Virus record (IMG/VR): IMGVR_UViG_3300031884_000002
Span: 289,773 to 353,772 of that record
DNA: 64,000 bases
Reading direction: 5' to 3' (one strand)
From: a virus
The position numbers and the translations under genes are program-made. Under the pieces are notes generated by a model. It was not told where the DNA came from, did not search any database, and saw nothing but the letters and a program-made list of their open reading frames with translations. Shown here piece after piece: positions 1,501 to 53,287 of the stretch (positions are counted from its first letter, which is position 1; every line of letters begins with the position of its first letter).

Positions 1501-2127
1501 TTAGTTCAATTCGGAGAGAATGTTATAAATCAACTCGTCGGTTCGTTCCCATCGGTTGGTCATTGGATTTTTAACAATTCCTTCGGCAAGTGAAATTTGT
1601 TCTACGGGTGCCATAAACGCACCTTGAACTGAAGGATTACTTACAAAGTCCCAGCATATAATACTGTAATCATTATTAACTTCAACCGAAGATTCTGATA
1701 ATTTTCTTACGGAACCAGTTCCACGGCTTGATATTCCAACTCTGATATTACACTTGAATAACTCTCTCAAAATATTTCCACTTGGAGTTGTTAATACATC
1801 AATGTCAGCAATTAAATCATTACCATTCCATTTAAGACCAACTATATTATGAGATACATTTTTAAGATTTACAACTTCAGTTTCAGCATGGTCTAATTCT
1901 CCAACTGCTCGTTTTTCATTTATAAATGTATTAACATATTCCGATACACTTTTATCCAAAACATCATCGGGATATACTCTTCCATTTTGATTGCGGACAC
2001 CCTTTCTTTGTACTAAGCCACGAACTCTAAACGGTTTGGCTTCATTCATTAGGGACTCTTTTAATAAAGTATCATCTACCTCAAATGTTATACATTCTAT
2101 TAACAATTTTTTATTTATATCATTCAT
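1501..2127 (-). CDS. Prohead core protease (T4 gp21-like, S78/U9 peptidase)
   Basis: This 208-residue protein matches the phage prohead protease family that digests the scaffold and trims capsid proteins during head maturation. Visible signs are GELDH with a candidate catalytic His80, a GISSRGTGS segment with candidate catalytic Ser133/134, and an N-terminal VRGLVQRKGVRNQNGRVYP segment typical of the family. Length agrees with T4 gp21 (212 aa). It is in the head operon downstream of terminase and portal, as in T4-like phages. Its ATG overlaps the stop of the upstream nuclease gene by 4 nt. The major capsid gene is not in the window and probably lies to the left. Confidence 0.85.
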   Translation of the reverse strand: MNDINKKLLIECITFEVDDTLLKESLMNEAKPFRVRGLVQRKGVRNQNGRVYPDDVLDKSVSEYVNTFINEKRAVGELDHAETEVVNLKNVSHNIVGLKWNGNDLIADIDVLTTPSGNILRELFKCNIRVGISSRGTGSVRKLSESSVEVNNDYSIICWDFVSNPSVQGAFMAPVEQISLAEGIVKNPMTNRWERTDELIYNILSELN

Positions 2128-2843
2128 AATGGTATTGAATAAGTAGGATATGATTTATATAATTTATTATATTTCTTACTATATCTAATTATTTCTTTTA
2201 TTTTTTCGTTTTTTAACAATTTTTTCGTTCTTCCTAAATCAAGAAATTTATTTTTCTTTTTTTCGTGCTGTGGTTCATCATACTCAAATGCTATTGAGTT
2301 TTTATAATCGTATCCATCAAGACAAAATCCATCTATCCATACTTCTCCACCGTTTAACGCATGTTGAAAATTATATCCGTTTTTTGTTCCGTAATTTTCA
2401 ATAAATACACACGCATCTTTATTAAAATTTGACACTCCTCCTTGTGTTTTAATTCGAAGTATAGCCGATTGTTTCATTTTATTGCGACATTCCGATGAAT
2501 AAATTCTATTTTTAGAAATACATGAATAACATAAACAATTTATTCGTTTTAATGCTTTATTTGGAGTTGATGCTTTAACATCTTTTTTACAATTAGAACA
2601 TTTTCTATACCATATATTATTCAAGTCGTGCCATACTAATCCACTTGATATAGCATCCAAAACAGGTTGAGAATATTTTCCTTTTTTTGGACTCTCTTTA
2701 CCATATAAATGATGTCGGCTACCTTTTTTAGAACATGATAAGCACATAGAGCCTAATGATAATGCTCGTTTAAGATTGTGCTTAGACGAATATAATAATT
2801 CTTTATTACATATCGAACAAGTTGTCTTATAATCATTAGTCAT
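2124..2843 (-). CDS. NUMOD3/Vsr-like free-standing homing endonuclease
   Basis: The 239-residue protein carries several Cys pairs (CSICNK, CLSCSK, CSNCKK, CYSCIS), a NUMOD3-type DNA-binding segment (HHLYGKESPKKGK) and a Vsr/EDxHD-like core, VWIDGFCLDGYDY followed by AFEYDEPQHEKK. It is wedged between two structural genes and overlaps the protease start by 4 nt, as expected for a mobile endonuclease in a head operon. A TATTTATA element lies 4 nt upstream of the ATG, so it may have its own promoter. Its target is not predictable, but an intron- and intein-free position beside the protease is plausible. Confidence 0.75.
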   Translation of the reverse strand: MTNDYKTTCSICNKELLYSSKHNLKRALSLGSMCLSCSKKGSRHHLYGKESPKKGKYSQPVLDAISSGLVWHDLNNIWYRKCSNCKKDVKASTPNKALKRINCLCYSCISKNRIYSSECRNKMKQSAILRIKTQGGVSNFNKDACVFIENYGTKNGYNFQHALNGGEVWIDGFCLDGYDYKNSIAFEYDEPQHEKKKNKFLDLGRTKKLLKNEKIKEIIRYSKKYNKLYKSYPTYSIPL

Positions 2844-2858: not shown

Positions 2859-3713
2859 TTATTTTTCTCTATAAACCTTCTTTATTCGTAAATCCCAATA
2901 TTGGTCTTTTTTATTCTCTTCCAATTTAACAACTTTTAACAACGGGGCTTTATTATAAAATAGATTTTGTAAACCTTTATTATCTAATTGATATTTTAAC
3001 ATATTGGACGGTATTTTTAATTCAAATACCGATACTATTACTCCATGTTCTTTTCGGTCAGTCCAACCTATTTTTTTAACTAAATCTTTTAACGGAGTTT
3101 CTTTTTTCTTTAACAGTAAAGGAAGCCATGATTTAATATCTTCAGTTATATCGAAAATTGAATATGCCTCATAATGTTTATTAACATTAACATCTTTTTC
3201 TTCTTCTTTAATATGAGATATAGGTTCCGGATTTAAAACAGGGACTTTAGATTGATTGCTATTAGGGCTATTATTGACAGGATTAGGATTATTGTTATTA
3301 TCATGTGGAACCTCCGGTTGTTTAATTTGGGCTGGATTGACTCCCTTTTGAGGAGATGGTTGACCGGTTGCCTGTCCTATAATTTTAATTTTCTCACTCG
3401 TGGATAAAAAATATTTTTTTGGTTTAGATGACATATCAGTAGCAATTATCACATAATGCCCATAATAATTTTCAATTGTAACGTTATTTATATCAAACTC
3501 ATATTTGGTAGAAAACTGTTTATATCCTCTTGAAGATTTAGCAATAACTCTTTTACCCTTTAGATATTGGTTAATTTTAGTTTGATATTTTTTAATCAAT
3601 TCTTTAGATTCTGTTTTTAATGAAGTTAAGAATTCAGAATACTCAATTCCAATATCAAAAAATTGAAGATTATCATCTGTTGTATTTTCTAACAATGTCG
3701 CTAATATTATCAT
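2859..3713 (-). CDS. Head-operon protein of unknown function, two domains joined by a Pro/Asn linker
   Basis: I do not recognise this 284-residue protein. An N-terminal lysine-rich domain (about 1-115) is followed by a low-complexity linker rich in Pro, Asn and Gln (about 116-170), then a C-terminal domain of about 110 residues. The gene lies between portal and protease, where T4-like phages keep core and scaffold genes, and its ATG overlaps the next upstream stop by 4 nt. A prohead core or head-completion role is inference from position. The linker could be a target of the prohead protease. Confidence 0.6.
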   Translation of the reverse strand: MIILATLLENTTDDNLQFFDIGIEYSEFLTSLKTESKELIKKYQTKINQYLKGKRVIAKSSRGYKQFSTKYEFDINNVTIENYYGHYVIIATDMSSKPKKYFLSTSEKIKIIGQATGQPSPQKGVNPAQIKQPEVPHDNNNNPNPVNNSPNSNQSKVPVLNPEPISHIKEEEKDVNVNKHYEAYSIFDITEDIKSWLPLLLKKKETPLKDLVKKIGWTDRKEHGVIVSVFELKIPSNMLKYQLDNKGLQNLFYNKAPLLKVVKLEENKKDQYWDLRIKKVYREK

Positions 3714-3979
3714 TTTAATTCGGATTGTAATATTTTTTCTGTTATATCAAACTCAGTATATTTTATTCGTAATAATTTTATATTCTTATTTTTAGCATAT
3801 TCGGTTTTAATATTATCTTTATATTTGATATATTCTAGGTCTTTATACGTTATTTTATGCCCGTTAAAATTTCCTCCATATGATACTTCAGCCGGAGTTT
3901 TATTATTTAATGAAAAATCCCATTCTTTACTTATTTCTGGATAAGTTATATCTAATTTATTTTGTAATTCCTTTAACAT
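3710..3979 (-). pseudogene. Remnant of a zinc-ribbon/Vsr-like homing endonuclease
   Basis: The 89-residue frame looks like the two ends of a larger nuclease joined by an internal deletion. The N-terminus (YPEISKEWDFSLNNKTPAEV) resembles the first module of treble-clef proteins of the DUF4379 type. The C-terminus (DNIKTEYAKNKNIKLLRIKY) is the usual C-terminal strand of Vsr-like phage endonucleases. The catalytic Asp/Glu/His core between them is missing. It overlaps the downstream gene by 4 nt, so it may persist because the reading frame couples translation. It could be a functional small protein, but a decayed mobile gene is more likely. Confidence 0.55.
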
Positions 3980-5259: not shown

Positions 5260-8200
5260 TTATAGTATTTCCTTTATATTTACCTCATCTAACATAGATG
5301 GTAATGTTGATTCTTTAATCAATTCTTTTTTTACATCAATAGGCTTGTCAAAAAACTCAGATAAAGACAATATTAACTTGGAGTTTCTGTTTTTCATTTG
5401 TTTATTATCTTGTACCGGTTTTTTTATTTCTTCAAGTGCATATGGAGAATCTCCTTCAAAGTTTTGATATAATTCGCTTTTCTTTTTAAACTCGCTATTC
5501 TTTCTTGGTTTTCTATTGAGTTCTAAATGTCCCAATGGGTCTTCTCCAAATGGATGATCGCTCGCCTTATGCTCTCCACTTTGGTCTCGATTAGCATCTT
5601 CTTTAACTATATCTTCCGGTTTTCCGATTTTAGGCTTCTCTTCGGTTTCGGGATTTGGTTCTTCTTCATTTCCCTCTCCTCCTTCTTTATTCCCTTCTCC
5701 CTCCTCACCCTCTCCTTCTAAATCTCCAAGATCGGAAAGTCCACCTCCACCACCATGTCCTCCACCACCACCGAGACCACCCAATCCACCACCTTCTCCT
5801 TTTTCTCCACCTCCACCACCCGTTCCTATTTTCTTCATAGGCATAGCTGGATCATCTCCATCATTTTCAATAGCCGCCAATCTATATTTGCGTTTTGCGA
5901 ACTCTATTACTGATTTCATTTCCGTTTCAATATCATCATTAGACATTTGGAATATATATTTATAGATATATTCAGGAGAAAATAAACCACTTTCCATCAT
6001 ATCTGTAGACAATGCTGTTTTTTCAGATAAAATGCTTATTTTCTCTTTTTCTAATATAGTACTAGAATTAGTTAGTTCAATTTTGAAATTGATTAAACTT
6101 TCATCTCTATATCCCTGAGCATATAAATGTATAACTCCTATCTTTTCCAATTCCACGCACAGTATTTTCTGAATACGTTGAATAGTTCGGGCAAATCGTA
6201 TATCTTCATTGCTTAATGTTGCCTTACTACCACCTTCTTCTCCAAAGTTTAAGAATGTTTTTGGTATTTTTAAAGCGGCAAACATCTTATTTTTAAGATA
6301 TTCAACATCATCAATACCTGTCCAATCCATACCTGGTAGAGTATCTATTCTAGTTCCCGAATCACTTCCACGAGTAGGGATATAAAAGTCATCCAACATA
6401 TTTTGAAGATTGAACTTGAGATTATATTCTCCTCGTTCATTCATATATGGAACTTTTTTAATTTTATCCTGTAATTTCTGCATGTAATTATCAACTTCGG
6501 CTGGTGGAATGTTGCCTATATCAACATAAAATATTCTTCTTTCGGGAGCACGAACTACACGATGAATCATCATTGCGTCTTCCAATAGGGATAATTGTTT
6601 CCATATTCTTCTTGCACCTTCCAAATAAGAACGACCATATGGGAAGAAGTTAGAATCGCCCGTTAATCTAAAATGGCAAATCTGCCAGTTTTCCAATACT
6701 TCGGCTTGGGATGTATCAGTCGGACGGATTTGAAACTTGACATACTTCTTATTATAAGGGTCGGCATTTTCAATTCGCTCTACATTTTCCGCATTTATAG
6801 GCTCCACCATATAAACACCATACTCTGGACTAACATATACTTTTAAAAAATGATCTCCTAATTTTAAAGTATTTCTAAGCCATCCCCATAAATTAAAGTC
6901 TAGGTTTAAAATATCATCGTATAAGTTTTCAAGTATTTCTTTAACATTATTATTTTCACAGTGTACGGTAAGCATTTTACCAAGTGCATTAGTCGTAAGA
7001 CAATTATGGGTAAATAATTTAGATCCATCCTTAGTTTCTATCGCATATAAATGTGAACTAGTTCCTACATTTACTAAATCATATGCTTTATATTCGCCAC
7101 ATGGTTCTACTGATATTACTCTATGATTATTTGATTTTGTATAATCAGCGTATGAGTTATATCCTATAATTTTATATTTTAATCTATCTATACGAGTAAT
7201 ATTATATTTATTACATATTTGTTTATTTAATACACTACAATCTTCTCTGAGAATGTTATATTTCTGTTTTAATTCTTTTCTAGATAATCCGTTTATTATA
7301 TCTTTTTCATATTCCTCCATATTTATGTGTTCGAAACGATTTACGGCTTCAATCCATCTTCCGTTTTTATTTTTGGTTAACTTATAACCATTTCCAAACA
7401 TTCCATTCTTATTTCCATTTCTTCCAAACTCTTTATTTCTATCTTCTTTAGACATTCCTTCCAGTCGCTTTAACATAGTAAAATGACAATTTTCGGAATG
7501 ATATTTTCTAGTTTCATCATTCCAATATCTTCTATGTCCTTCTCTGGTTTTTTCTTTATATTCGTGTGTTTTTGTTTTATCTGCCCATATTTCTTTATTA
7601 AATTGAGAGTGTATTTTTTTATGCTCTATATAACCAACCCATTTAAGATATTCTGGACTATTATTTAATTTATTAAACGACGAATGATGAATTACTTTAT
7701 CGGTTTCACATACTGTTTCTCGCTGAGTTATTAACGAAGGTTCATTTTTTGCAACTAATCTATGAGTAAATTGCCATTTTCCATTTATATATAACATCTC
7801 ATATCCATTCATAAATTTGAAATTGGATAATTTAGTATTAAATATTTTTAACGATGTCCCTAATTCAAGTTTATCGGTTGATATAATAGACATATCTGAT
7901 TTTACCCACATATGATTAGACGTACATTTTATCTCGGTTCCATCGTCCAATAATACTTTATACATTGGTTTAATACCATTATATGCCACTCGTTCACATT
8001 TTTCGGGTTTGAAGTTCCCATCGGAATCTATAGAATATACCCAGAAATCTGTTTTATTTTGATTATATAAATCTTCAATTTTTACTTTATCTCCATTCAA
8101 TAATGGTATAATAGTGTTCCCCTCTATGCATTCGTCTGCTACAATATCTAAAGTTGCATTTAGAATTGGGTCCATATCCATTGTATTGTGTGAAAATACA

Positions 8201-9522
8201 GTATCTGATGCAAAATTTTGATATTTTTCAACTGTTACATCATATACATCTATTTCTCCGACATATTCTATGGATTTTACTTTATGATTTAATTTAGTAA
8301 AAATCTCTTGTTTAAACGATTTCCAGTTATGATTGTTAGATTTTAATCGATTGGTTATAAGTGATATATCACAATGTAAATATTTAGATACTTCTTTAAG
8401 ATTTAATTTTCCATAATTTCTATAATACTCAAAAGATTGCTCTTTTATTATATCAAATGTTAATTCGTCTCTATAATTTGGATTTTTTCCTAAATTATAA
8501 TTTCTGGTTTTACAATATGTTTTTAATGATTTAGAACGTACTTCATTAGATTCTTTCGTATGTATTTTTCCATAAAATGGATTATTAGTTCCAGATCTTT
8601 CACCATTCCAATGATGAAACTTTCTATTTTTATATCCTTCGGAAGAATGTATTTTTTCTAATGTTTTTTGTTTATTTTCAAACGACCACATTTTATCAGT
8701 TACTAATTTAATATGATATTGTTTATGTGCTGTTTTATCCATTATAACTAAATTATCCGGCATATTATATGATGGATTGAACTGTTGATGATGAACCACT
8801 TCATTATCTTTGAGAGGTCTATTAAATTGTTCTGCTATTACATTGTGTTCTGGTTGCCATCCTTTTGAAAAATTATAAACATGCCTATATCCTTTGTTAT
8901 AAAAATCTTTTTGATAAAACGGCATTATAGAGTCCCCTACTTTTATATCTTCTAATTTTTTATAATCTCCATTTCTCATTAAGAACGGATGTCCTCCGCT
9001 TGCTATTATATATTTACCCTTTTCAAATGTTAATTTCCATGCTTTTAATTTTCCTCCATCTTTTTTTCTTGGATGATATGCATTTCCCAATTTTATAGAG
9101 TTTGATTCGTGGTCATAAGAATAAACATAAAATCTTTCTTGTGGTTTATTTTTATATTTTTCAGCCAACTCTGCTATTGTAGGATACGTTCCATCTGGCA
9201 GTGGAATGATAGTTTCTCCTGCCACACATTGATAATCCCTAAACATTTCAATACGAGCCGCTTGATAAGATAATGAAAAGTCTCTAGAATATGCATTATA
9301 CGCAGTTGAACGAATACGATTAAATCTATCTCGGAGAGAGTTTCTATCTCCTGCCATCATCGAATGGTCGGTGTCTTTAACAATTAATTGTTTTCCACCG
9401 ACATTTCTAACTATTGTTTCTGATGAGAATAAAGTTTTTAACCGAGCATATAAAGATTGTTTCTTTATATCTACGATATCATCGTTAATTGAATTTGGTC
9501 TATTTATTTGGTTAAGTGCCAT
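5260..9522 (-). CDS. Portal protein precursor with two inteins (T4 gp20-like)
   Basis: The 1420-residue product is a portal vertex protein interrupted by two inteins. Removing residues 99-446 and 465-840 leaves a 696-residue extein. Portal-type segments include RLTGDSNFFPYGRSYLEGA, MMIHRVVRAPERRIFYVDIG and KMFAALKIPKTFLNF, and the gene lies directly downstream of terminase, as in T4-like phages. The 18-residue piece between the inteins (TMDMDPILNATLDIVADE) is the conserved helix present in related portals. After the core there is an unusual Gly-rich then Glu-rich low-complexity tail (roughly residues 1215-1300), and about 110 further residues. The portal forms the dodecameric DNA entry ring and docks the terminase. 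Confidence 0.9.
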   Translation of the reverse strand: MALNQINRPNSINDDIVDIKKQSLYARLKTLFSSETIVRNVGGKQLIVKDTDHSMMAGDRNSLRDRFNRIRSTAYNAYSRDFSLSYQAARIEMFRDYQCVAGETIIPLPDGTYPTIAELAEKYKNKPQERFYVYSYDHESNSIKLGNAYHPRKKDGGKLKAWKLTFEKGKYIIASGGHPFLMRNGDYKKLEDIKVGDSIMPFYQKDFYNKGYRHVYNFSKGWQPEHNVIAEQFNRPLKDNEVVHHQQFNPSYNMPDNLVIMDKTAHKQYHIKLVTDKMWSFENKQKTLEKIHSSEGYKNRKFHHWNGERSGTNNPFYGKIHTKESNEVRSKSLKTYCKTRNYNLGKNPNYRDELTFDIIKEQSFEYYRNYGKLNLKEVSKYLHCDISLITNRLKSNNHNWKSFKQEIFTKLNHKVKSIEYVGEIDVYDVTVEKYQNFASDTVFSHNTMDMDPILNATLDIVADECIEGNTIIPLLNGDKVKIEDLYNQNKTDFWVYSIDSDGNFKPEKCERVAYNGIKPMYKVLLDDGTEIKCTSNHMWVKSDMSIISTDKLELGTSLKIFNTKLSNFKFMNGYEMLYINGKWQFTHRLVAKNEPSLITQRETVCETDKVIHHSSFNKLNNSPEYLKWVGYIEHKKIHSQFNKEIWADKTKTHEYKEKTREGHRRYWNDETRKYHSENCHFTMLKRLEGMSKEDRNKEFGRNGNKNGMFGNGYKLTKNKNGRWIEAVNRFEHINMEEYEKDIINGLSRKELKQKYNILREDCSVLNKQICNKYNITRIDRLKYKIIGYNSYADYTKSNNHRVISVEPCGEYKAYDLVNVGTSSHLYAIETKDGSKLFTHNCLTTNALGKMLTVHCENNNVKEILENLYDDILNLDFNLWGWLRNTLKLGDHFLKVYVSPEYGVYMVEPINAENVERIENADPYNKKYVKFQIRPTDTSQAEVLENWQICHFRLTGDSNFFPYGRSYLEGARRIWKQLSLLEDAMMIHRVVRAPERRIFYVDIGNIPPAEVDNYMQKLQDKIKKVPYMNERGEYNLKFNLQNMLDDFYIPTRGSDSGTRIDTLPGMDWTGIDDVEYLKNKMFAALKIPKTFLNFGEEGGSKATLSNEDIRFARTIQRIQKILCVELEKIGVIHLYAQGYRDESLINFKIELTNSSTILEKEKISILSEKTALSTDMMESGLFSPEYIYKYIFQMSNDDIETEMKSVIEFAKRKYRLAAIENDGDDPAMPMKKIGTGGGGGEKGEGGGLGGLGGGGGHGGGGGLSDLGDLEGEGEEGEGNKEGGEGNEEEPNPETEEKPKIGKPEDIVKEDANRDQSGEHKASDHPFGEDPLGHLELNRKPRKNSEFKKKSELYQNFEGDSPYALEEIKKPVQDNKQMKNRNSKLILSLSEFFDKPIDVKKELIKESTLPSMLDEVNIKEIL
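7003..8130 (-). other. Intein 2 in portal, with HNH endonuclease domain (376 aa)
   Basis: It begins with Cys (CIEGNTIIPLLNGD, block A), has a block B with TSNH, and ends in block F/G with LFTHN followed by Cys as the +1 residue. That is a complete class 1 splicing set. The middle carries an HNH-type signature, VIHHSSFNKLNNSPEYLKWV, and a NUMOD3-like NGMFGNGY motif, so it should be a homing endonuclease intein. The insertion is in the conserved helix after DIVADE, only 18 residues from intein 1. Confidence 0.9.
8185..9228 (-). other. Intein 1 in portal, with HNH endonuclease domain (348 aa)
   Basis: It begins with Cys (CVAGETIIPLPDG, block A) after FRDYQ, has a GGHPF block B and a DVTVEKYQNFA block F, and ends FSHN with Thr as the +1 residue. 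The HNH signature is VVHHQQFNPSYNMPDNL with a further AHKQYH histidine pair, and a NUMOD3-like NPFYGKIHTKES segment follows. All splicing residues look intact. Confidence 0.9.
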
Positions 9523-9571: not shown

Positions 9572-11185
9572 TTAACCAATTAGCCATTTTAATGACTCAA
9601 CTTCATTGTTTATACCGCCCGTTTTCATACTCCATGGATCATTTGGCATGTTTCTTTGATTATTATGATATACTGGAACGTTGTCAATTTTTGCTTGTCT
9701 AAAATGGTCAAGAGATGACCTAGTTAAATCTATTCCTTTTTGTCTAAGTAATAATGCAGTATCTCTTATCCACAGTCCAATACATAAACTCATGACTAAA
9801 TCATCGTTATAACCTTGCATTGCTTGTGCCTTGAAGTTTTTCCAAATGAAAGTTTCCAATTCTGATAAGGTTCTGGCGGAATATATTTTAATTTCTTTTT
9901 CCGACATATATCTGCGAAGGTAATCTATCATCACAGGTCGAGTTTTCATAGATGTTGAAAATCCTGCCGTTGATTTTTTTTCTTCTGCATTATATCTATT
10001 AGAATGCTGATGTTCTGGGTCAACATATTTTAAATCATCCGTCATATAAAATAAGTTTGAATATTTTCTATTTATAACTTGTTGAATAACTGCCCATCCC
10101 GTATTTTCACGTTCAATTACTAATAATGCAGTGTTGTATTCCGCCGCAAGATTTACTAACATATTTCCATATTCTGTAGTTCCTATTTGACCTTTATATT
10201 CGGCACATTGTTCTAACGATACCGCATCTAAAACATGACATGCTTGATAATCTCCACCATCTCCACGAGCTGTATCGGCTGATAAAATATAAGATTTATC
10301 ATAATTGGGTTCTTTCCAATACCACAAACATCGGTCACTTAGTCGTTTATCATATGGGTCAGTTCTAATATGTTTTTTATAATATTCTATCAATTCTAGA
10401 GCTATAACGTTATCTCCGGATGCTAACCAATCACAATCACATTCCTGACCTGCTAATGATGCTCCCAATTCCTTTGTTTGAGCGTCTCTCCATGCTTGAT
10501 TTCTCTCTGGGTGTAAATCCCACGGAAGCCTAATAGGATTAAAATTATTTCTTTTTTCACTCGCATCGCACCACATTCTATGGAAAAAGTTTCCATATCC
10601 ATTGGGAGTTGATAAAATAATAGAATTACCACCCGTTGACAATGTACTCCAAGATGAAGCCCAAATATCATCTATGTTTTCAATAAATGCGGCTTCATCA
10701 ATAATAAGAAGATATACTGCCATAGAACGACCAGCATCACCACTGGATGATACTGCTCTTATATGTGATCCATTTTTAAATTTTAATGATAATCGATTAT
10801 CTTCAATGCATGGTATTTTTAACCAAACCGGCAAATTATCATTTGCAAATCTAACTTTTGAAATTAACTCTTTCGAAACTTCTTGTTTAATCGAAATAAT
10901 AAGAATATTCTTATCTTTATTGAATATCATTACCCATAATGAATATGCCGCCACTAATGTAGAGATACCCATTTGACGAGATTTTAAAACTATATTAAAC
11001 TTATTATCGGCAAATTGTTTAAGCGTATCTTCCTGAAATGGAAATAATTCAAATTTTAAGGTTCCTTTTATTTGATGTTGTATCTTTACATAATTTTTCA
11101 TGAAATATACAGGAGACGCTGCACATTTGGCATATTCTTCCGCTACTATTTCTTGTAATGTTTTCTTTTTTGCTGGCTCACTCAT
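9572..11185 (-). CDS. terL: Terminase large subunit (T4 gp17-like)
   Basis: The 537-residue protein is the ATP-driven packaging motor. The N-terminal ATPase has a Walker A-like LKSRQMGIS (about 67-75), Walker B LLIIDEA (about 159-165) and a STPNGYGN coupling segment. The C-terminal RuvC-like nuclease has SADTARGDGGD (about 302-312), a VIERENTG motif and a late acidic NDDLVMSL segment. Length is close to other T4-like large terminases. It is followed 49 nt later by portal. The upstream gene overlaps its ATG by 4 nt and could encode the small subunit. Confidence 0.93.
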   Translation of the reverse strand: MSEPAKKKTLQEIVAEEYAKCAASPVYFMKNYVKIQHQIKGTLKFELFPFQEDTLKQFADNKFNIVLKSRQMGISTLVAAYSLWVMIFNKDKNILIISIKQEVSKELISKVRFANDNLPVWLKIPCIEDNRLSLKFKNGSHIRAVSSSGDAGRSMAVYLLIIDEAAFIENIDDIWASSWSTLSTGGNSIILSTPNGYGNFFHRMWCDASEKRNNFNPIRLPWDLHPERNQAWRDAQTKELGASLAGQECDCDWLASGDNVIALELIEYYKKHIRTDPYDKRLSDRCLWYWKEPNYDKSYILSADTARGDGGDYQACHVLDAVSLEQCAEYKGQIGTTEYGNMLVNLAAEYNTALLVIERENTGWAVIQQVINRKYSNLFYMTDDLKYVDPEHQHSNRYNAEEKKSTAGFSTSMKTRPVMIDYLRRYMSEKEIKIYSARTLSELETFIWKNFKAQAMQGYNDDLVMSLCIGLWIRDTALLLRQKGIDLTRSSLDHFRQAKIDNVPVYHNNQRNMPNDPWSMKTGGINNEVESLKWLIG

Positions 11186-46560: not shown

Positions 46561-46650
46561 TGGCGGAATAGGAGAGAATTGAACTCTCGCTGGTTTAACC
46601 CAGCCTTGTTTAGCAGACAAGTCCAACAAACCAACATTTGGCTCTATTCC
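46561..46650 (-). tRNA. tRNA-Ser(GCT)
   Basis: Cloverleaf with acceptor GGAATAG/CTATTCC, anticodon arm CTTGT-CTGCTAA-ACAAG, long variable arm (GCTGG/CCAGC), consensus T-loop TTCAATT, discriminator G and an encoded CCA. Confidence 0.9.
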
Positions 46651-46710
46651 ATTGACAATAGTGAGTTTTAATTATTTGGCGGAAAGGTGTATTTTAAGAA
46701 AGTTAAATGA

Positions 46711-46718
46711 TATTTATA
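46711..46718 (+). promoter_or_regulatory. TATTTATA element of the + strand endonuclease gene
   Basis: Plus-strand TATTTATA, 4 nt before the ATG at 46723. With 12091 it is the second + strand example. Confidence 0.55.
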
Positions 46719-46722
46719 ATAT

Positions 46723-47406
46723 ATGATTATAAAATATAAAGAAGAAGAGTTTAAATTGGCAAAATCCAGAGATTTATTAAATTTAGAATGTGAATGTTGT
46801 CATAAAATATTTGGAGCACGGAAAAAAGATATAAATTGGGCGTTAAATTGCACTTATAGAGATATGTTAAAATATTGTGGGCGGAAATGTAGTGGGAAAA
46901 CATCAAGAATTGGAGACGAACTAAACTGTACCACTTGTGGAAAATTATTTTATAGAAATAAATGTAGACAAAAACTATCCAAAAATTACTTCTGTTCTTC
47001 TATGTGTGCGTATAAACATAATAAAAATAATTTCTTGAAAAAATATGGAACTCGTAGATCAAAATTAGAAAAATGGTTAGAAGTACATTTAATTTTACTA
47101 TATCCAACATTAAATATAGTTTATAATTCACGAATGGATATAAACGCTGAATTGGATATTTATATTCCTTCATTAAAATTAGCATTTGAGTTAAATGGTA
47201 TATTCCACTATGAACCAATCTATGGAAAAGAAACTTTAAATAAAGTAAAAACTAATGATAATAGGAAATTTCAAGCCTGTATAGAAAAAGAAATTGAACT
47301 TTGTATTATAGATACAAGTAAACAAAGATGTTGTAGTGATAAGTCATCTCAAAAATATTTAGATATAATTACTAAAATTATAAATGAAAAATTGGCGGTA
47401 GGCTGA
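46723..47406 (+). CDS. Vsr-like (EDxHD-type) homing endonuclease
   Basis: The 227-residue protein has Cys pairs (CECCHK, CTTCGK) and a SSMCAYKHNKNNFLKKYGTR repeat segment, then ELDIYIP and AFELNGIFHYEP, the EDxHD/Vsr core. It is the only + strand gene in the accessory region. Its last 14 bases overlap, in antisense, the CCA end of tRNA-Ser(TGA), and the stop codon TGA at 47404-47406 lies in the tRNA. That placement suggests insertion at or targeting of the tRNA locus. Confidence 0.75.
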   Translation: MIIKYKEEEFKLAKSRDLLNLECECCHKIFGARKKDINWALNCTYRDMLKYCGRKCSGKTSRIGDELNCTTCGKLFYRNKCRQKLSKNYFCSSMCAYKHNKNNFLKKYGTRRSKLEKWLEVHLILLYPTLNIVYNSRMDINAELDIYIPSLKLAFELNGIFHYEPIYGKETLNKVKTNDNRKFQACIEKEIELCIIDTSKQRCCSDKSSQKYLDIITKIINEKLAVG

Positions 47407-47483
47407 GGTCACGCTCCCCATCCCCGTTTTAGGGGGACATACTGATTTCAAGTCAGTTCCGAATCTCATTCGGTTAACCTACC
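47393..47483 (-). tRNA. tRNA-Ser(TGA)
   Basis: Acceptor GGTAGGT/GCCTACC, anticodon arm ACTGA-CTTGAAA-TCAGT, long variable arm, discriminator G and encoded CCA. The T-loop is AGCGTGA instead of TTCRANY, which is unusual. Its 3' end overlaps the + strand endonuclease gene. Confidence 0.8.
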
Positions 47484-47485
47484 AA

Positions 47486-47623
47486 TTAAATCTTAAATCT
47501 ATATTTAGAATGTCTTCTATGACAGTTGGAACATTTTTCACCATCACTTACTTTCCAAATATCACATATACACCAAGAAGATTTGTCTCCTTTGGGATTT
47601 AATTTTCTTTCCCGATTAGTCAT
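47486..47623 (-). CDS. Small zinc-ribbon-like protein (45 aa)
   Basis: Hand translation gives MTNRERKLNPKGDKSSWCIC and 25 more residues with CIC...CSNCH spacing, a likely single zinc site. It ends 3 nt before tRNA-Ser(TGA). Function is unknown. Confidence 0.5.
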   Translation of the reverse strand: MTNRERKLNPKGDKSSWCICDIWKVSDGEKCSNCHRRHSKYRFKI

Positions 47624-47676
47624 TTTATAATCTATATCATAATATGATTGATGCATATCTATAACTATAATCCAAA

Positions 47677-47766
47677 TGGCGGAAAATACTGATGTCGATT
47701 CAGATGCACAGTTAAGGCACGTATAGTTTTCGAAACTATCCTAAGAGCCGTCTTAGTTTATTTTCC
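47677..47766 (-). tRNA. tRNA-Ser(CGA)
   Basis: Acceptor GGAAAAT/ATTTTCC, anticodon arm ATAGT-TTCGAAA-ACTAT, long variable arm, discriminator G and encoded CCA. The T-loop is ATCGACA, again non-consensus, and the T-stem has one mismatch. Confidence 0.75.
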
Positions 47767-47768
47767 AA

Positions 47769-47845
47769 TGGAGATGCTAGTCGGGATTGAACCGACATAA
47801 TCCAATTACGGTAATTTGTTTAGGAAACAAATCCGATATAGCATC
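47769..47845 (-). tRNA. tRNA-like gene without a normal D-arm, possibly Arg(CCT)
   Basis: Acceptor GATGCTA/TAGCATC, consensus T-arm GTCGG-TTCAATC-CCGAC and CCA are perfect. The only anticodon-like arm is TTTGT-TTCCTAA-ACAAA directly after position 14, leaving no room for a D-arm and about 18 nt before the T-arm. That 3' segment contains AATTGGATTA, which looks like a D-loop. Either a rearranged tRNA or an element with another job. Confidence 0.5.
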
Positions 47846-47868
47846 AAAGTTTTTCACCATAAACACAT

Positions 47869-48294
47869 TCAATAATAATTTACCATTGCCCACTCAAACT
47901 CGTTATTTTTTAATTTATCCATTGCCATTTCAATTAACCACGGCACATTTGTTAATAATTCATCTCTCAACAAATCCATTTGATTTATATCAAAAATTAT
48001 TACTTCTTCTTCGGTTGTAGTTTTTAATTTTGTTAAATCACCAATAGCAGCATATACATATACTTTAAAAGTATCATCCTTTGCCATAGTACAATAATGT
48101 TTCCAATCATTTATAGTAACTCCCGTTTCTTCTATAAACTCACGCACCATAGCATCTGGTAATGATTCGGTTGGTTCTATCTTACCACCAATTCCATTTA
48201 CTTTACCAGCTTGCCATTCTGGTTTTGTTTTTCTAATCAATGCCACTTGTGTTAATTTTTCATTAAATAAAAATCCTAAACAATATTGTGTCAT
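47869..48294 (-). CDS. NUDIX hydrolase
   Basis: The 141-residue protein has a full Nudix box, GIGGKIEPTESLPDAMVREF then IEETGV (about 34-59), matching GX5EX7REUXEEXGU. Such enzymes hydrolyse nucleoside diphosphates linked to another group, such as oxidised nucleotides, ADP-ribose or caps. Substrate is not predictable. It overlaps nothing and is 2 nt from the next small gene. NUDIX genes are common in large phages. Confidence 0.88.
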   Translation of the reverse strand: MTQYCLGFLFNEKLTQVALIRKTKPEWQAGKVNGIGGKIEPTESLPDAMVREFIEETGVTINDWKHYCTMAKDDTFKVYVYAAIGDLTKLKTTTEEEVIIFDINQMDLLRDELLTNVPWLIEMAMDKLKNNEFEWAMVNYY

Positions 48295-48296
48295 AA

Positions 48297-48485
48297 TTAA
48301 GAAATCGTTAAATTGTTAAACTCGCTGGCATTTTTATATTTTTTAATTATTTTTTCACATGCTTTCATATACGAACGAGCATATACTAAACAAGTTTCAT
48401 CATCATTATTCCATATTGTTACCGGATAAGAAAACTTTATTAAATAAGGTTTCTCATTTTCTGATGTTTTTCGTATTGTATTCAT
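48297..48485 (-). CDS. Small protein, unknown
   Basis: The 62-residue protein begins MNTIRKTSENEKPYLIKFSY and has a mixed alpha/beta pattern, with no known family. It is tightly packed between the NUDIX gene and a 65-aa gene, with 1-2 nt spacing. Confidence 0.5.
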   Translation of the reverse strand: MNTIRKTSENEKPYLIKFSYPVTIWNNDDETCLVYARSYMKACEKIIKKYKNASEFNNLTIS

Positions 48486-48486
48486 A

Positions 48487-48684
48487 TTAGCACATTCTTC
48501 CAGTTATCATCTGTCTCCAAGGATAGTGCCTCCTGATTTTTTGAGTTACTATCCAATATTCCGTAATTATCTTACCATATTCTCTTTGATTGGAAATCGA
48601 TTTTTGTCTAATTGCATCTATTCTTTTTTTCCATTCGTCACGAATGCGTCTTCTTTTTTGATACTTTTCTAAATTATGTCTCAT
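48487..48684 (-). CDS. Small basic protein, unknown
   Basis: The 65-residue protein is highly basic (MRHNLEKYQKRRRIRDEWKK), so nucleic-acid binding is possible. Its ATG begins with the last A of the CCA of tRNA-Arg(TCT), so tRNA processing would leave a leaderless message. Confidence 0.5.
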   Translation of the reverse strand: MRHNLEKYQKRRRIRDEWKKRIDAIRQKSISNQREYGKIITEYWIVTQKIRRHYPWRQMITGRMC

Positions 48685-48774
48685 GGTGCTGCCGGGAGGA
48701 TTCGAACCTCCATAGAGTAATTAAACTCACAGATTAGAAATCTGTTGCCTAAATCCAATTCGAGCCACGACAGC
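48684..48774 (-). tRNA. tRNA with Arg anticodon TCT and long variable arm
   Basis: Acceptor GCTGTCG/CGGCAGC, anticodon arm ACAGA-TTTCTAA-TCTGT, T-loop TTCGAAT, discriminator A, encoded CCA. Between anticodon and T-stem is a 17-nt variable region with a GAGT/ACTC stem, so it is class II, not expected for Arg. D-loop GAATTGGATTTA is similar to that of the Arg(ACG) gene. Confidence 0.8.
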
Positions 48775-48820
48775 ATTAACACTTTAATAATATCACAGTA
48801 ATAAATTAAAGTCAAGTGAA

Positions 48821-49588
48821 TTATTTAATTACTTGTAATGAATATGCTTCCGATAAATAATCATTTAAATAAACATAGGGTAATAGAAAATAACCATTTA
48901 ATGCCCATTGGTCCGACCAACTATTTCTAACGATAAGATATTGTAAATTATTTACATATCCACACACTAAAACCGCATGACCTCCCAATAATTTTTCTTT
49001 TGTGATATCTGGTAATGGAACTATTCCTGTTTTTGCTACTGTATCACTTTCAAAACTTTCATATAATGTAATTCCAATAATAACCGGATGATTATTTGCC
49101 AAACTATGTTGAATATCGTTTAAATTATTACAGGTATTAAATTGTAATAATACATTAGAAGATGCCGATGCATAACATTCATTTAATGGTTTGACCGTAA
49201 ACTTAGTAATATCATACGGCCAATCAGATTCCGCACATATTCCTTGTTGTTTTAATGATATACATCCATCACCTAAACAAGCACCGCTATCTTGGTCTAT
49301 TGTATTTTCAATAGTTCTTTCGTTATAATATAGAAATAAACGAGAAGGATTCGGATTTAGAGATGGTAAATTTTGAGATTTTAATTCGTAATTAAAAGCA
49401 GCGGCAAATGCGTTAGCAGAACACGAACCCAAATTTCCTTGGTCATATACTGGGTCTAATAGTAAAGTTTCTCTTAAATCAACTGTATCTGGCAATGGAA
49501 CTGAAGAAGGTTCTGCCACCATCAACTTAGATGGATGAAATAAATGATGTTTTGGAGTTGGTTTTAAATTGTAAATGTGTTTATTCAT
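48821..49588 (-). CDS. Papain-like cysteine protease (C1 family)
   Basis: From the ATG at 49588 (MNKHIYNLKPTPKHHLFHPS) the protein has 255 residues. It carries the C1 triad region: YDQGNLGSCSANA (oxyanion Gln50, nucleophile Cys56), LGGHAVLVCG (His204) and VRNSWSD (Asn222). There is no signal peptide and only a short prodomain. It may cleave host or phage proteins in the cytoplasm, or act in lysis or superinfection control. C1 proteases are unusual in phages. A TATTTATA element is 11 nt upstream, with an AGGAAA purine run in between. Confidence 0.85.
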   Translation of the reverse strand: MNKHIYNLKPTPKHHLFHPSKLMVAEPSSVPLPDTVDLRETLLLDPVYDQGNLGSCSANAFAAAFNYELKSQNLPSLNPNPSRLFLYYNERTIENTIDQDSGACLGDGCISLKQQGICAESDWPYDITKFTVKPLNECYASASSNVLLQFNTCNNLNDIQHSLANNHPVIIGITLYESFESDTVAKTGIVPLPDITKEKLLGGHAVLVCGYVNNLQYLIVRNSWSDQWALNGYFLLPYVYLNDYLSEAYSLQVIK

Positions 49589-49599
49589 ATAGTTTCCTA

Positions 49600-49607
49600 T
49601 ATAAATA
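49600..49607 (-). promoter_or_regulatory. TATTTATA element of the papain-like protease gene
   Basis: Sense-strand TATTTATA, 11 nt before the ATG at 49588. A Shine-Dalgarno-like AGGAAA lies between them, one of the few visible here. Confidence 0.5.
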
Positions 49608-49613
49608 TAACAA

Positions 49614-49742
49614 TCAACCATTATTATTTTTTAATAATTTATGTATTTTATAAAACTTAGATGGTTTTAATTTAGCCTCTTTACGAAACTCCTTTTCGGA
49701 TTTTATTCGCTTATTCCAAGATGGTAAGTTTAAGTTTTTCAT
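49614..49742 (-). CDS. Small basic protein of 42 aa
   Basis: Hand translation gives MKNLNLPSWNKRIKSEKEFR and 22 further residues, rich in Lys. It starts 9 nt downstream of the CCA of tRNA-Arg(TCG). Low complexity makes the call moderate. Confidence 0.4.
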   Translation of the reverse strand: MKNLNLPSWNKRIKSEKEFRKEAKLKPSKFYKIHKLLKNNNG

Positions 49743-49751
49743 TATAAACAA

Positions 49752-49827
49752 TGGTACTGCCGAGAGGATTTGAACCTCTAACTTTTCGCTTCGAAGGCGA
49801 TTACTCTTCCAATTGAGTTACGACAGC
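49752..49827 (-). tRNA. tRNA-Arg(TCG)
   Basis: Acceptor GCTGTCG/CGGCAGT (one G-T wobble), anticodon arm TCGC-CTTCGAA-GCGA, normal short variable loop, T-loop TTCAAAT, discriminator A, encoded CCA. Its first 27 bases are also the C-terminal codons and stop of the adjacent 68-aa gene. Confidence 0.85.
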
Positions 49828-50007
49828 ATTTAATTTGACCTGTTTAATTAAATCTCTGGCTTTTTGGGCATCTTTTCGAGTGATTGGTGCTTCACTTAAA
49901 TTAACAATGCCATACGGAACACCTTCTCCCCGTTTCCAAGCATCCAATACTAATTGTCTAAACTTTGGATTAACCAGTTCAATTTCTTCTTTTTTTAATA
50001 GTTTCAT
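49801..50007 (-). CDS. Small protein ending inside tRNA-Arg(TCG)
   Basis: The 68-residue protein is helical (IKQVKLNAVVTQLEE at the end). Its last nine codons and TAA are read from the 5' half of tRNA-Arg(TCG), the stop falling in the D-loop. RNase P cleavage would therefore remove the end of the coding region. No family is recognised. Confidence 0.6.
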   Translation of the reverse strand: MKLLKKEEIELVNPKFRQLVLDAWKRGEGVPYGIVNLSEAPITRKDAQKARDLIKQVKLNAVVTQLEE

Positions 50008-50225
50008 AAATTATTTATATCATCAAATATTAACTCTGGAGCACCGGCTAAAATACTTTCTTTGTCAATACACGCATCGGCACCAAATATATAAAAAAAT
50101 GTTTGCTTTAATGTCTTATGATATGCCTCGCAGTATTTAAATCCTGCCTGACTAATTTTTATTTTTCCCCTGAACTCGTGGGAACACCACTTTTCTTGTA
50201 TTTCTTTACTAACATATATATTCAT
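50004..50225 (-). CDS. Small protein, unknown
   Basis: I take the ATG at 50225 (MNIYVSKEIQEKWCSHEFRG). The longer frame to 50321 runs through non-coding-looking sequence. The 73-residue product has Cys/His residues (WCSHEFRG, KYCEAYH) and an acidic C-terminus. It overlaps the next ATG by 4 nt. Confidence 0.55.
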   Translation of the reverse strand: MNIYVSKEIQEKWCSHEFRGKIKISQAGFKYCEAYHKTLKQTFFYIFGADACIDKESILAGAPELIFDDINNL

Positions 50226-50328
50226 AAATTGTTCTTTATTCTGGGTGGAGAGAATAAAGATGTTTACTTGGTTATGGCTTGCCGCACGTTTGTATATCCC
50301 ACCATTCACCCAACTCACCACTTGGGAG

Positions 50329-50493
50329 TTATTTTAATATTTTTAACACCAATTTTGCCTTTTTTAATTTTGCGGCAGTCTTTTTATACTCTTCTTCCGT
50401 TGAGTTTTTCTTAAAATTATTACTATTAAGTCTTCTTTCTAAGAACTCAATGTAATTTTTTTCGTGTTTTAATCTTGTTTCCTTTTCGCTCAT
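50329..50493 (-). CDS. Small lysine-rich protein of 54 aa
   Basis: Hand translation gives MSEKETRLKHEKNYIEFLER followed by a Lys/Asn/Glu-rich helix. No motif. Between 50228 and 50328 there is a GGGTGAATGG/TTCTCTCCACCC pairing that resembles tRNA ends but no clear cloverleaf. Confidence 0.45.
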   Translation of the reverse strand: MSEKETRLKHEKNYIEFLERRLNSNNFKKNSTEEEYKKTAAKLKKAKLVLKILK

Positions 50494-50565
50494 ATAGTAT
50501 AATCAATAGAGTTTTTAATTATATGCAAGTTATAAAACTCACTGTTATTCTAAAATTATTTTATT

Positions 50566-50922
50566 TCAATGATGATGACTTCCTCCATTATTAAAATGGT
50601 CGTCATGACCAGAATGAGATTTCCAATTTCCATGTCCTCTTTCCCATCCATGGAAACGTTCTAACCGCCAAGGTTCGCAATGATACCAAAATCCACTGGG
50701 ACCAAGATACATATATTCTCCCCCAGCAACTCCTACATATTCAAATCCATCCCATATATACGTTTCGGGATATAATCCAATTCCCACTACGGGTTGCGAT
50801 ACAACCACTGGAGCAGGACCACTAATAACCATGCTAGGAGTAGTCCATGTAGCAACACATCCTGATAAGGTTAATGACATTAACAATCCAACTAATATAC
50901 TAACTGTTTTTGTATTTTTCAT
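50566..50922 (-). CDS. Secreted lipoprotein rich in aromatic and His residues
   Basis: I start at the ATG at 50922, where MKNTKTVSILVGLLMSLTLS is followed by GCVATW: a signal peptide with lipobox LSGC. The earlier frame start is upstream in a tRNA. The mature 98-residue part is rich in Trp, Tyr and Gly and ends in His/Ser-rich sequence. Similar lipoproteins occur in PVC bacteria. It may modify the host surface, for example superinfection exclusion. It begins 3 nt after the CCA of tRNA-Val(TAC). Confidence 0.7.
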   Translation of the reverse strand: MKNTKTVSILVGLLMSLTLSGCVATWTTPSMVISGPAPVVVSQPVVGIGLYPETYIWDGFEYVGVAGGEYMYLGPSGFWYHCEPWRLERFHGWERGHGNWKSHSGHDDHFNNGGSHHH

Positions 50923-50925
50923 AAA

Positions 50926-50999
50926 TGGTACGGGATAAAGGAATTGAACCTTTTCTTTTTGAGTGTAAATCAAAATCGCTACCATTACAACAATCCCGC
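50926..50999 (-). tRNA. tRNA-Val(TAC)
   Basis: Acceptor GCGGGAT/ATCCCGT, anticodon arm TTTGA-TTTACAC-TCAAA, T-arm AAAGG-TTCAATT-CCTTT, discriminator A, encoded CCA. Confidence 0.9.
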
Positions 51000-51015
51000 A
51001 TACTAACTAAAGACG

Positions 51016-51037
51016 GGGTTCATATTTTACTACGAAC
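51016..51037. terminator. Hairpin, possible transcript end
   Basis: GGTTC and GAACC arms flank an AT-rich loop between the 81-aa gene and tRNA-Val. There is no T-run, so a processing or stability hairpin is equally possible. Confidence 0.35.
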
Positions 51038-51086
51038 CTTACAGCAATTCCTACATATGGTAAGTATGTCAAAATACCAATACAGT

Positions 51087-51332
51087 TTAAACTTTATTAT
51101 CTTGCCAATCTTTTACTATTTTATCTAAAATCTCTTTATCTATTCTTTGTGCTAATAAGTTGGCAGATGGAGAGGGATTAAATTCCCACTTATTACATTT
51201 AGGACACTTATAATATGACGGTATAACTGGATTTCCCATATCTCCAATTATGGGGTCACTATCCTCGATGACTTCCATTTTAATTATTAAATTATCTATC
51301 TCTTCACATTTTTTACATATTTCATTATTCAT
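51087..51332 (-). CDS. Small two-CxxC zinc protein
   Basis: The 81-residue protein has CKKCEE near the N-terminus and [11 protein letters not shown] in the middle, giving one zinc site of four cysteines. It overlaps the pseudopilin stop by 4 nt. It could be a small regulator or a nuclease fragment. Confidence 0.6.
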
Positions 51333-52174
51333 AAATTATTTCTCGCAGTCAAGTTTTGCAACCATATCAAGTCATTATTTCCAACAGTTGGAGCAAGCGA
51401 CGGAATATTAGGATATGAGAATCTCATATTAAGAACAATTGGGTCGGTCCATTTTTTAATTTGAACATGTCCATCACAAAACGATATTCCATTTGCTCCA
51501 TTATGATATGTAGCTGGATAATCTACCCAATATAATGTAGATACATCATCAGAATTTGATTTTGGATATTCTATAAAATATGCATCATTTATAGTATATG
51601 GACTTTCATCCATCATTAACCATATATTAGATGGTCCCATAATAGCAAGTGAGTTTTCAGTTCTCATTGCAATTCCCGTTTTGTTTTTATTAAAAACATT
51701 AATCGGATTAAGCCATCCATTCATAGACATACTTCTACATCTAGGAACCAATTGATTATGAATCGAAACCGTACTAACATCAGATGGACAATGATAAATG
51801 TTTGGTTGTTTAGAATAAGGATAAATACATCCTATTTTAATCCATGCCGCATTCGTAGGTTCTCCTACCGGAGCAATTGAATCCATTCTCCCCGGACACC
51901 ATTGTAGAGTTGCCCCTTGAGAATCCATTGCCGTATTTGGCTGAGACCCGATTTCTCCATTTGGAGCCAAAATACCATTATTATCTTGCGAATACATCGT
52001 CCATGCCATTCCAAGTTGTTTTAAATTATTAACACATGCTATACCCTGTGCCGTTTGTTTAGCTTTAGTTAATACTGGCAATAACATTGCAGCCAAAATT
52101 GAAATGATTGCAATTACAACTAGTAATTCTACTAATGTAAATCCCAAACATATTTTGCTGTTTTTTATTTTCAT
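51329..52174 (-). CDS. Type II/IV pseudopilin-like protein (DUF1559-type)
   Basis: The 281-residue protein has a prepilin N-terminus: short basic leader KIKNSK then CLG with cleavage before [18 protein letters not shown], the classical class III signal. The ectodomain has a [12 protein letters not shown] motif and a C-terminal [14 protein letters not shown] segment, both hallmarks of the large DUF1559 pseudopilin families of Planctomycetota, Verrucomicrobiota and Lentisphaerota. Its presence in a phage is very unusual. It could change host pili or secretion machinery, or be incorporated in them. Confidence 0.85.
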
Positions 52175-52180
52175 AAAATA

Positions 52181-52360
52181 TTATTGTCCGTTCACGGATT
52201 TCCATTCTTCTGTAGTATAATAAGATGAATATTGATATATATCGTCTTTATAATGTTTTTCAACATATTCGATTTCCCATAATTGCATTAACAATTTATT
52301 TACAAAATGTAAATGTGCTGACGGAGTTTCTCGTGTGATTTCAGTAATAACTTTTTTCAT
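52181..52360 (-). CDS. Small protein, unknown
   Basis: I take the ATG at 52360 (MKKVITEITRETPSAHLHFV), 7 nt from the CCA of tRNA-Cys, since the longer frame begins inside the tRNA. The 59-residue product is followed 6 nt later by the pseudopilin. No motif is visible. Confidence 0.5.
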   Translation of the reverse strand: MKKVITEITRETPSAHLHFVNKLLMQLWEIEYVEKHYKDDIYQYSSYYTTEEWKSVNGQ

Positions 52361-52366
52361 AAAAGA

Positions 52367-52447
52367 TGGAGCACAGTGTTGGAATCGAACCAACTCTTTT
52401 AATTAGCAGTTTTGCAGACTGCCGCCTTCCCATTTGGCTAACCGTGC
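52367..52447 (-). tRNA. tRNA-Cys(GCA)
   Basis: Acceptor GCACGGT/ACTGTGC, anticodon arm GCAGT-CTGCAAA-ACTGC, T-loop TTCGATT, discriminator T, encoded CCA. The variable region (TAATTAAAAGA) is slightly long. Confidence 0.9.
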
Positions 52448-52453
52448 ATTAAA

Positions 52454-52597
52454 CTAATACATAAATAACCACAATAACAATAATATTATTGCGATTACAG
52501 ACCAGAACTTCCAAAACAATGATATTTTACAGTCCGGTACATATGGAGAATAAGTTGAATATTTATTCTCATTTTCATTATCACGCATTTCATTCAT
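52454..52597 (-). CDS. Small single-pass membrane protein of 47 aa
   Basis: Hand translation gives MNEMRDNENENKYSTYSPYV, then a C-terminal hydrophobic helix (VIAIILLLLWLFMY). It ends 7 nt before tRNA-Cys. A tail-anchored membrane peptide, possibly with an effect on the host membrane. Confidence 0.5.
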   Translation of the reverse strand: MNEMRDNENENKYSTYSPYVPDCKISLFWKFWSVIAIILLLLWLFMY

Positions 52598-52644
52598 AAA
52601 ATTGTAAGGTATCCTATATTATATAACATTTACCAATGGAACTA

Positions 52645-52978: not shown

Positions 52979-53030
52979 ATTGTTACAAGTATATAGATTA
53001 TGGATTAAAAGTCAAGTATTAAAAATTATG

Positions 53031-53286: not shown

Positions 53287-53287
53287 A

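Follow-up and report, generated by a model that had tools for sequence, protein, structure and literature searches.

A T4-type portal gene with two closely spaced inteins that probably arrived as separate mobile elements

Introduction

How two inteins come to sit almost side by side in a single structural gene, and what such an arrangement means for the virus that carries it, is the question raised by a portal gene in the final 64 kb of a virus contig of 353,772 bp (IMG/VR record IMGVR_UViG_3300031884_000002). We refer to this whole stretch of 64,000 nucleotides as the window. An earlier note on the window had described two complete inteins in the gene, 18 extein residues apart, and had read them as independent insertions. 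We put a probability of about 0.92 on a portal with two class 1 inteins at neighboring sites, each of which would have arrived independently as a mobile element, and both of which would be spliced out to leave a portal of 696 amino acids (aa).

Architecture of the portal precursor

The gp20-type portal precursor is encoded by an open reading frame (ORF) on the minus strand (5260–9522), with 1420 codons (1420 aa) free of stops in the standard code; in the full record, it lies in one open frame of 1424 codons. A Pfam scan places it in the T4-type portal family, with the Portal_T4 profile (PF07230) matching the C-extein at E=2.3e-63. From the N-terminus, and all on the minus strand, a boundary script delineates an N-extein of 98 aa ending in FRDYQ (9229–9522; ORF aa 1–98), intein a of 348 aa (8185–9228; aa 99–446, C...SHN|T, with Thr at +1), a middle extein of 18 aa, TMDMDPILNATLDIVADE (8131–8184; aa 447–464), intein b of 376 aa (7003–8130; aa 465–840, C...THN|C, with Cys at +1), and a C-extein of 580 aa with the Portal_T4 match and a Gly-rich tail (5263–7002; aa 841–1420). 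Site a is the position after extein residue 98 and site b that after residue 116. These boundaries bear out the two complete inteins of the earlier note, as well as its remark that most of the N-terminal coding length is intein (724 of the first 840 codons). Its figure of 696 aa likewise agrees with the length that the script computes for the joined exteins, the predicted product.

The intein profile search that had been proposed as a check points the same way: both the Intein_splicing model (Pfam scan, E=1e-27) and the NCBIfam intein N-terminal model match two stretches of the ORF. HNH_3 and NUMOD3 match one stretch apiece in the Pfam scan, both within intein a, and two PHROG families annotated as 'HNH endonuclease' match two stretches each, the location of the second stretch not being given. 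The two inteins can be aligned with each other end to end, at 25% identity (E=3e-20).

Splicing residues and the Hint fold

Class 1 inteins splice through an N–S shift at Cys1, attack by the +1 residue and cyclization of the last Asn, with the penultimate His taking part. Both portal inteins possess the residues of this route: intein a features Cys1, SGGH in block B, a final His-Asn and +1 Thr, and intein b features Cys1, TSNH, His-Asn and +1 Cys. The same residues recur in the relatives described below. All 24 distinct a inteins have Cys1 and the last Asn, with Thr at +1 in 23 and Cys in 1; all 7 distinct b inteins have Cys1 and His-Asn, with Cys at +1 in 6 and Ser in 1.

Each intein has a Hint splicing domain into which a second region is inserted. 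PF14890 matches intein a with E=3.3e-18, spanning positions 1–155 of the 155 in the model, and intein b with E=4.4e-9. The predicted structure of intein b (predicted local distance difference test score, pLDDT, 78) superimposes on the DnaB intein 1mi8 with a Z of 18.4 over 128 residues (root-mean-square deviation, rmsd, 1.6). That of intein a, a weaker model with a pLDDT of 66, does so with a Z of 13.2 over 126 residues (rmsd 3.2). For either model, the listed structure matches are to Hint domains and none is to a nuclease domain, which excludes nothing. Given the conservation of the splice residues across relatives and the matches to the Hint fold, we infer that both inteins splice out of the window portal.

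Presence and absence of the two inteins among relatives

To collect relatives, viral contigs were scanned with several queries, namely the complete portal, each of the two inteins, the C-extein and the two intein alignments, the scans keeping the best 80 of at least 599, the best 80 of 597 (C-extein) and the best 80 of 190. Since part of the sample was fetched with intein queries, it leans towards intein-bearing genes. Before counting, 25 loci that are second stretches of contigs in the set were removed along with L082, and later 26 second stretches, giving 190 distinct contigs (124 + 66 kept). A readable 18-residue middle extein, picked by its motif, is present in 166; the other 24 were excluded, for example for an extein broken by a site-107 intein, frame breaks or contig ends, or as other genes. 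The portal tree was computed without L067, L110, L147, L038, L040 and L129, and state a was assigned by hand to L004 (frame break) and L104 (contig starting within the intein). Four b inteins (L166, L169, L170 and L173) had at first been cut too short; L170 and L172 were reread, and L166, L168, L169 and L173 were left out. Two calls are uncertain, namely an insertion near 374 in L146 (start uncertain) and a doubtful one near 117 in L147.

All four states are found at the two sites: of the 166 contigs, 81 are empty, 66 have only a, 14 have only b, and 5 have both (the window, L001, L174 and the near-identical L244 and L245). Within the clade of 40 portals around that of the window, 30 have a, 4 have b, 2 have both and 4 have neither. 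L012, with site a filled, and L016, with it empty, differ by an insertion of 1041 bp, with flanking DNA that is 92–94% identical; the two constitute a natural filled/empty pair at site a.

These relatives also bear on the argument by which the earlier note had arrived at independent insertion, namely that the +1 residues differ. In clade members with an empty site a, the +1 position is Thr in L016, L018, L020, L114, L083, L084 and L085 and Val in L003; in those with an empty site b, it is Cys, Ser or Thr. As it is an extein residue, mostly present already where the intein is absent, the +1 residue is, judging from these alignments, a property of the insertion site and not evidence on the origin of the intein. 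The case for independent insertion thus loses this argument and stands on the four states, on the sorting of inteins by site and on the inteins of other genes that separate a from b.

Mutual exclusion of the two inteins was considered and set aside. Portals with both look depleted in the 40-member clade (2/40, Fisher p=0.0095; 2/33 without near-copies, p=0.020), but the effect is gone in the wider set (5/166, p=0.145). In view of this, and of a sample drawn partly with intein queries, we make no such claim.

Intein trees and the portal tree

A tree of 47 distinct portal inteins showed a clear relationship between ancestry and insertion site: the 10 site groups need 9 changes, the minimum possible. 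To this tree we added 9 inteins from outside the portal, those of gyrase subunits and dCTP deaminase from genome contigs and those of ribonucleotide reductase (RNR), the large terminase (TerL) and polymerase from viral records. Inteins of other genes keep the site-98 (a) and site-116 (b) groups apart with support of 96/94: the b group falls beside the gyrase, dcd and TerL inteins, and the a group falls with those of RNR and Pol. Window intein b groups with the other b inteins (100/100). None of 200 bootstrap trees (0%) unites all portal inteins in a single group. Because other genes' inteins split them and no bootstrap tree unites them, a and b most likely entered the portal gene on separate occasions.

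The history of the inteins also departs from that of the gene. In the portal tree, the sister of the window is L002 (100/100), yet a sister relationship of their a inteins is rejected by the approximately unbiased (AU) test, with p=0.0043 for 24 a rows and 5e-48 in a 54-row tree. For b, sisterhood of the window and L001 copies is rejected at p=0.025, a weaker result than for a, obtained with 7 rows. Hence, on the tree comparison, intein a has a history that differs from that of its portal. Empty and filled alleles at one site, coupled with a history unlike that of the host gene, are the marks of a mobile allele, and both are seen here.

A single named donor lineage for both inteins was also entertained. 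With 24 a rows, window a is sister to L022 (96/91), window b is sister to L003 (96/95), and the portals of L022 and L003 belong to a common clade (99/96). We rejected this candidate, as the link to L022 is absent from the best 54-row tree, where it is nonetheless not rejected (p=0.31). Identity along portal segments revealed no imported stretch near sites a and b.

Proposed explanation and its alternatives

We propose that the homing endonuclease of an intein would cut, at its own target site, a portal allele that has no intein there, and that repair of the cut allele would copy the intein into it. After translation, each Hint domain would excise itself by way of the Cys1 N–S shift, attack by +1 Thr (a) or +1 Cys (b), and Asn cyclization, with the 696-aa portal as the end product and the order of the two events presumably irrelevant. 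The proposal draws on the boundaries, the splice residues, the independent presence and absence, the non-portal history and the loss of the endonuclease in some copies, all apparent from sequence comparison; splicing and homing themselves are what these features would imply.

Several observations weigh against it. On the splicing side, the penultimate His is present in just 12 of the 24 distinct a-type inteins, that of the window among them; intein a has SGGH in its TxxH block; the −1 residue at site a is Gln in the window as opposed to Asp in the 23 other distinct a inteins; and the structure model of intein a is of low confidence, as its pLDDT indicates. On the mobility side, the HNH Asn is found in none (0/9) of the distinct full-length b-type copies read, with both His residues conserved. 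Since b-type endonucleases lack this Asn, b may not be mobile by itself. Finally, the sorting by site has one exception, L243, taken up below.

The alternatives differ in which of these facts they account for. Were the second intein a local copy of the first, through duplication or a hop of 54 bp, a and b would be sisters; their end-to-end similarity and common layout of Hint and HNH regions would fit, and the a-type intein at site b of L243 suggests that local hops do occur. However, the separation of the two groups by inteins of other genes, the absence of any bootstrap tree uniting the portal inteins and the firm placement of window b with its site group make this origin unlikely, even allowing for long branches and just 9 outside inteins in that tree. 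The earlier note had further proposed that splicing order and efficiency would control portal assembly. A regulatory switch, with splicing rate or order setting the timing of assembly, has a precedent in mycobacterial DnaB, whose two inteins differ in splicing rates and stress responses, according to parts of PMC6195587. Nothing in our data speaks for it, and close relatives whose portal is otherwise similar are without one intein or both, the endonuclease is gone from some copies, and the intein history is unlike that of the portal. We accordingly regard it as improbable, and intein-free relatives, endonuclease loss and discordant histories lead us to view the inteins as mobile, dispensable elements.

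With homologous Hint domains just 18 residues apart, it is conceivable that they lie too close for independent splicing and that the N half of a partly reacts with the C half of b, so that the 18-residue peptide is lost. This is highly improbable given that a and b are only 25% identical and that the 18-residue motif is kept, in the alignment, in portals with and without inteins; because it is kept regardless of inteins, a product without the peptide would probably be selected against. The 166-contig census is itself no test of motif conservation, as its members were picked by that motif. An artefact of assembly or annotation, such as a chimera of two intein-bearing reads, might be suspected of a pair known from a single metagenomic record. 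It is scarcely credible here: the gene is one open frame in the record, and chance or mis-assembly is very unlikely because the pair, with its 18-residue spacer, recurs in the four other doubly occupied portals, which come from other contigs.

The endonucleases of inteins a and b

The separately inserted mobile inteins that we favor differ in their nucleases. Within intein a, HNH_3 matches 8725–8847 (minus strand; ORF aa 226–266) at 24.9 bits against a cut-off of 24.8, and NUMOD3 matches 8548–8595 (minus strand; aa 310–325) at 19.8 bits, slightly below the curated 20.4; scanned alone, window intein a falls under both curated cut-offs. In the a family, both models match 23 of the 23 aligned members at E<=0.1, the nuclease alignment being made without the 189-aa L023 copy. 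The a-family nuclease profile matches I-HmuI (1u3e) with E=0.0042, motif Asn aligned to Asn. The HNH Asn is present in 53 of 55 distinct a-type copies, and the remaining two (L023 and L255) are without any motif. The insert of intein a is thus clearly a predicted HNH homing endonuclease with NUMOD3.

Intein b has an HNH-derived region (HH...Y...H), taken for alignment A4 (7486–7809, minus strand). The residue at the HNH Asn position in the b-type copies is Y, H, C, V, E, E, Q, K or S. Scanned alone, window intein b is matched by neither HNH_3 nor NUMOD3 at E<=0.1; of 7 b inteins, HNH_3 finds 2 at this threshold, and NUMOD3 finds 0. Against solved structures, the b nuclease profile retrieved no nuclease, its best matches being unrelated at E of about 0.05. 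Elsewhere, much of the b motif is unchanged across six sequences that are as little as 36% identical, and it therefore looks unlike free decay. The b nuclease is therefore best read, from its motif, as a descendant of HNH without the HNH Asn. The earlier statement that both inteins carry HNH/NUMOD3 domains accordingly applies to a but has to be given up for b in respect of NUMOD3 and the HNH Asn.

Loss of the insert is seen between L085, with a b intein of 165 aa, and L084, with one of 429 aa, in surrounding DNA that is 97–99% identical. Other short inteins are those at site b of L174 (149 aa) and L175 (148 aa) and at site a of L023 (189 aa).

A 239-aa ORF elsewhere in the window (2124–2843, minus strand), between 2859–3713 and the prohead protease (1501–2127), is perhaps a free-standing homing endonuclease; it has a match neither in Pfam (above cut-off) nor in PHROG, and its final stretch looks like a Vsr-type nuclease.

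An a-type intein at site b

The site-b intein of L243 (307 aa) is of the a type. Its top four matches are all site-98 inteins, with that of L105 the best at 63%, and in the tree with outside inteins, it falls within the site-98 group (100/96). In the larger tree of a inteins (54 rows), it adjoins L022 (89/91), close to the midpoint root. An AU test with the 8 site-b rows, L243 included, as one clade gave p=0.47 but is uninformative, since L243 then came out basal to the a inteins. The evidence comes from one contig of 6,496 bp. A shift of an a-type intein to site b is the likely direction, as judged from the tree with outside inteins; it is not certain, because of the position near the midpoint root and because the AU test is uninformative.

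This raises the tentative, and on balance doubtful, idea of the portal as a local intein nursery, where neighboring sites would swap inteins over tens of bp and the a+b pair, 54 bp apart, would be carried as a compound element since homing of either would copy both. If so, b could ride on the endonuclease of a, which would explain the missing HNH Asn in b-type nucleases. Counting against this are the occurrence of b without a in 14 of the 166 contigs and with a in only 5, and the fact that L243 is a single short contig.

The portal as an intein hot spot

Sites a and b are only two of those occupied in this portal family. In window extein numbering, inteins lie after residues 98, 107, 116, 161, 240, 253, 373, 376 and 380, and the divergent L177 group features additional sites. 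Hence, as read from the alignments, this family has no fewer than nine intein sites, and a single gene can have as many as four of them filled. L009/L107 have four (98, 107, 161 and 380), the first two 9 extein residues apart, and L083 has four (116, 240, 253 and 380) in one frame of 2306 codons. LR756508, an uncultured phage of 484 kb, has three portal insertions, one with an uncertain start. Across the 40-member clade, which holds near-copies (L009/L107 and L019/L100), 4 portals have no intein, 25 have one, 6 have two, 2 have three and 3 have four.

The earlier remark that paired portal inteins are rare therefore depends on scope. In this clade, 11 of 40 portals have two or more inteins at any site, whereas among the best 80 of 597 by C-extein, only 3 bear inteins, one each. 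Seven of those 80 belong to the window clade (3 with a, 4 with none), and the other 73 have no insertion of >100 aa.

The inteins at 240 and 253, which group apart from the others (100/100), have LAGLIDADG-like motifs in relatives, as judged by eye only. At site 161, the inteins of L098, L107 (also L009), L172 and L173 begin with Pro, not Cys or Ser, and end in Lys-Asn with +1 Cys, and the one in L251 begins with Cys; those starting with Pro would represent a non-standard splicing start or a non-splicing intein. In L110, L249 and L256, portal genes with pieces of a-type inteins are split over many frames, probably through sequencing errors. A recoded stop as the cause of the broken L110 portal found no support: no plus-strand frame exceeds 600 aa with any one stop read through.

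Comparison with known systems

A close parallel is the haloarchaeal MCM gene with its inteins MCM-a, b, c and d, of which, in the passages of PMC10643990 on these elements, a and d occur together in 38 of 129 Haloferacales and co-homing of two neighbors into an empty gene is inefficient. MCM and the portal have in common that several intein sites lie near each other within a single gene, that inteins are gained and lost independently and pass from lineage to lineage, and that some copies are without an endonuclease; in MCM (PMC10643990), however, the nucleases are LAGLIDADG enzymes in an archaeal helicase and homing was measured, whereas the portal system is of HNH type, in a phage structural protein, and known from sequence.

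Portal inteins are also listed for 6 cluster C1 mycobacteriophages, a likeness by description and not by sequence, and the passages of PMC5050341 concerned make no mention of portals with several inteins. Two inteins in one packaging gene are described, in parts of PMC7886860, for the TerL of a crAss-like phage of the Delta group; there, they are Hint-Hop inteins in a gene with TAG codons, in contrast to the window, where the portal is the host, the code is standard and the adjacent large terminase (9572–11185; 537 aa) has no intein match in the profile scan. For gut huge phages with introns and putative inteins, passages of PMC12363816 call the portal genes fragmented and/or divergent. Among the open-access literature matches listed, no paper is titled on T4-type portals with multiple inteins.

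Intein-free portals of the window family match the C-terminal part of T4 gp20 (PDB 3ja7, 6uzc and 9lu6) with E of about 1e-32. The N-terminal part with sites a and b has no significant alignment to T4 gp20, so that the two sites cannot be mapped onto it.

Other observations

Two loci outside the window appear to contain genes broken by split inteins. In L163 (G000:C1:189000-206000), frame reading suggests a ribonucleotide reductase in three pieces, a gp41-like helicase and a UvsX/RecA-like gene, close to an endonuclease-like ORF; several of these frames are matched by N- and C-terminal intein profiles, the gene names coming from reading and not from profiles. This arrangement resembles the 'fractured genes' reportedly described by Dassa et al. 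in 2009. In L164 (G000:C1:161500-166500), a dUTPase-like gene is apparently broken by a split intein around an endonuclease-like ORF of 300 aa: 3235–3777 reads like the N half, and 1739–2305 has an intein C-terminal profile match. Within the window, 17 tRNA genes occupy about 16 kb (46561–62907, minus strand), one of them (59409–59477) with an unreadable anticodon.

Implications

The window portal represents a known mechanism in a little-described host gene, and its interest lies in a densely invaded structural gene in which intermediate states are kept. Portals are ring-shaped assemblies whose protein is produced in fixed amounts, and when as many as four inteins interrupt the gene, the question becomes how the virus tolerates so many self-removal steps in one of its structural proteins. 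As for the b-type nucleases, which have no HNH Asn, they might be dead passengers or a variant enzyme. Together, the relatives amount to a natural experiment in intein gain, intein loss, endonuclease decay and change of site at closely spaced positions, in a system that is not archaeal.

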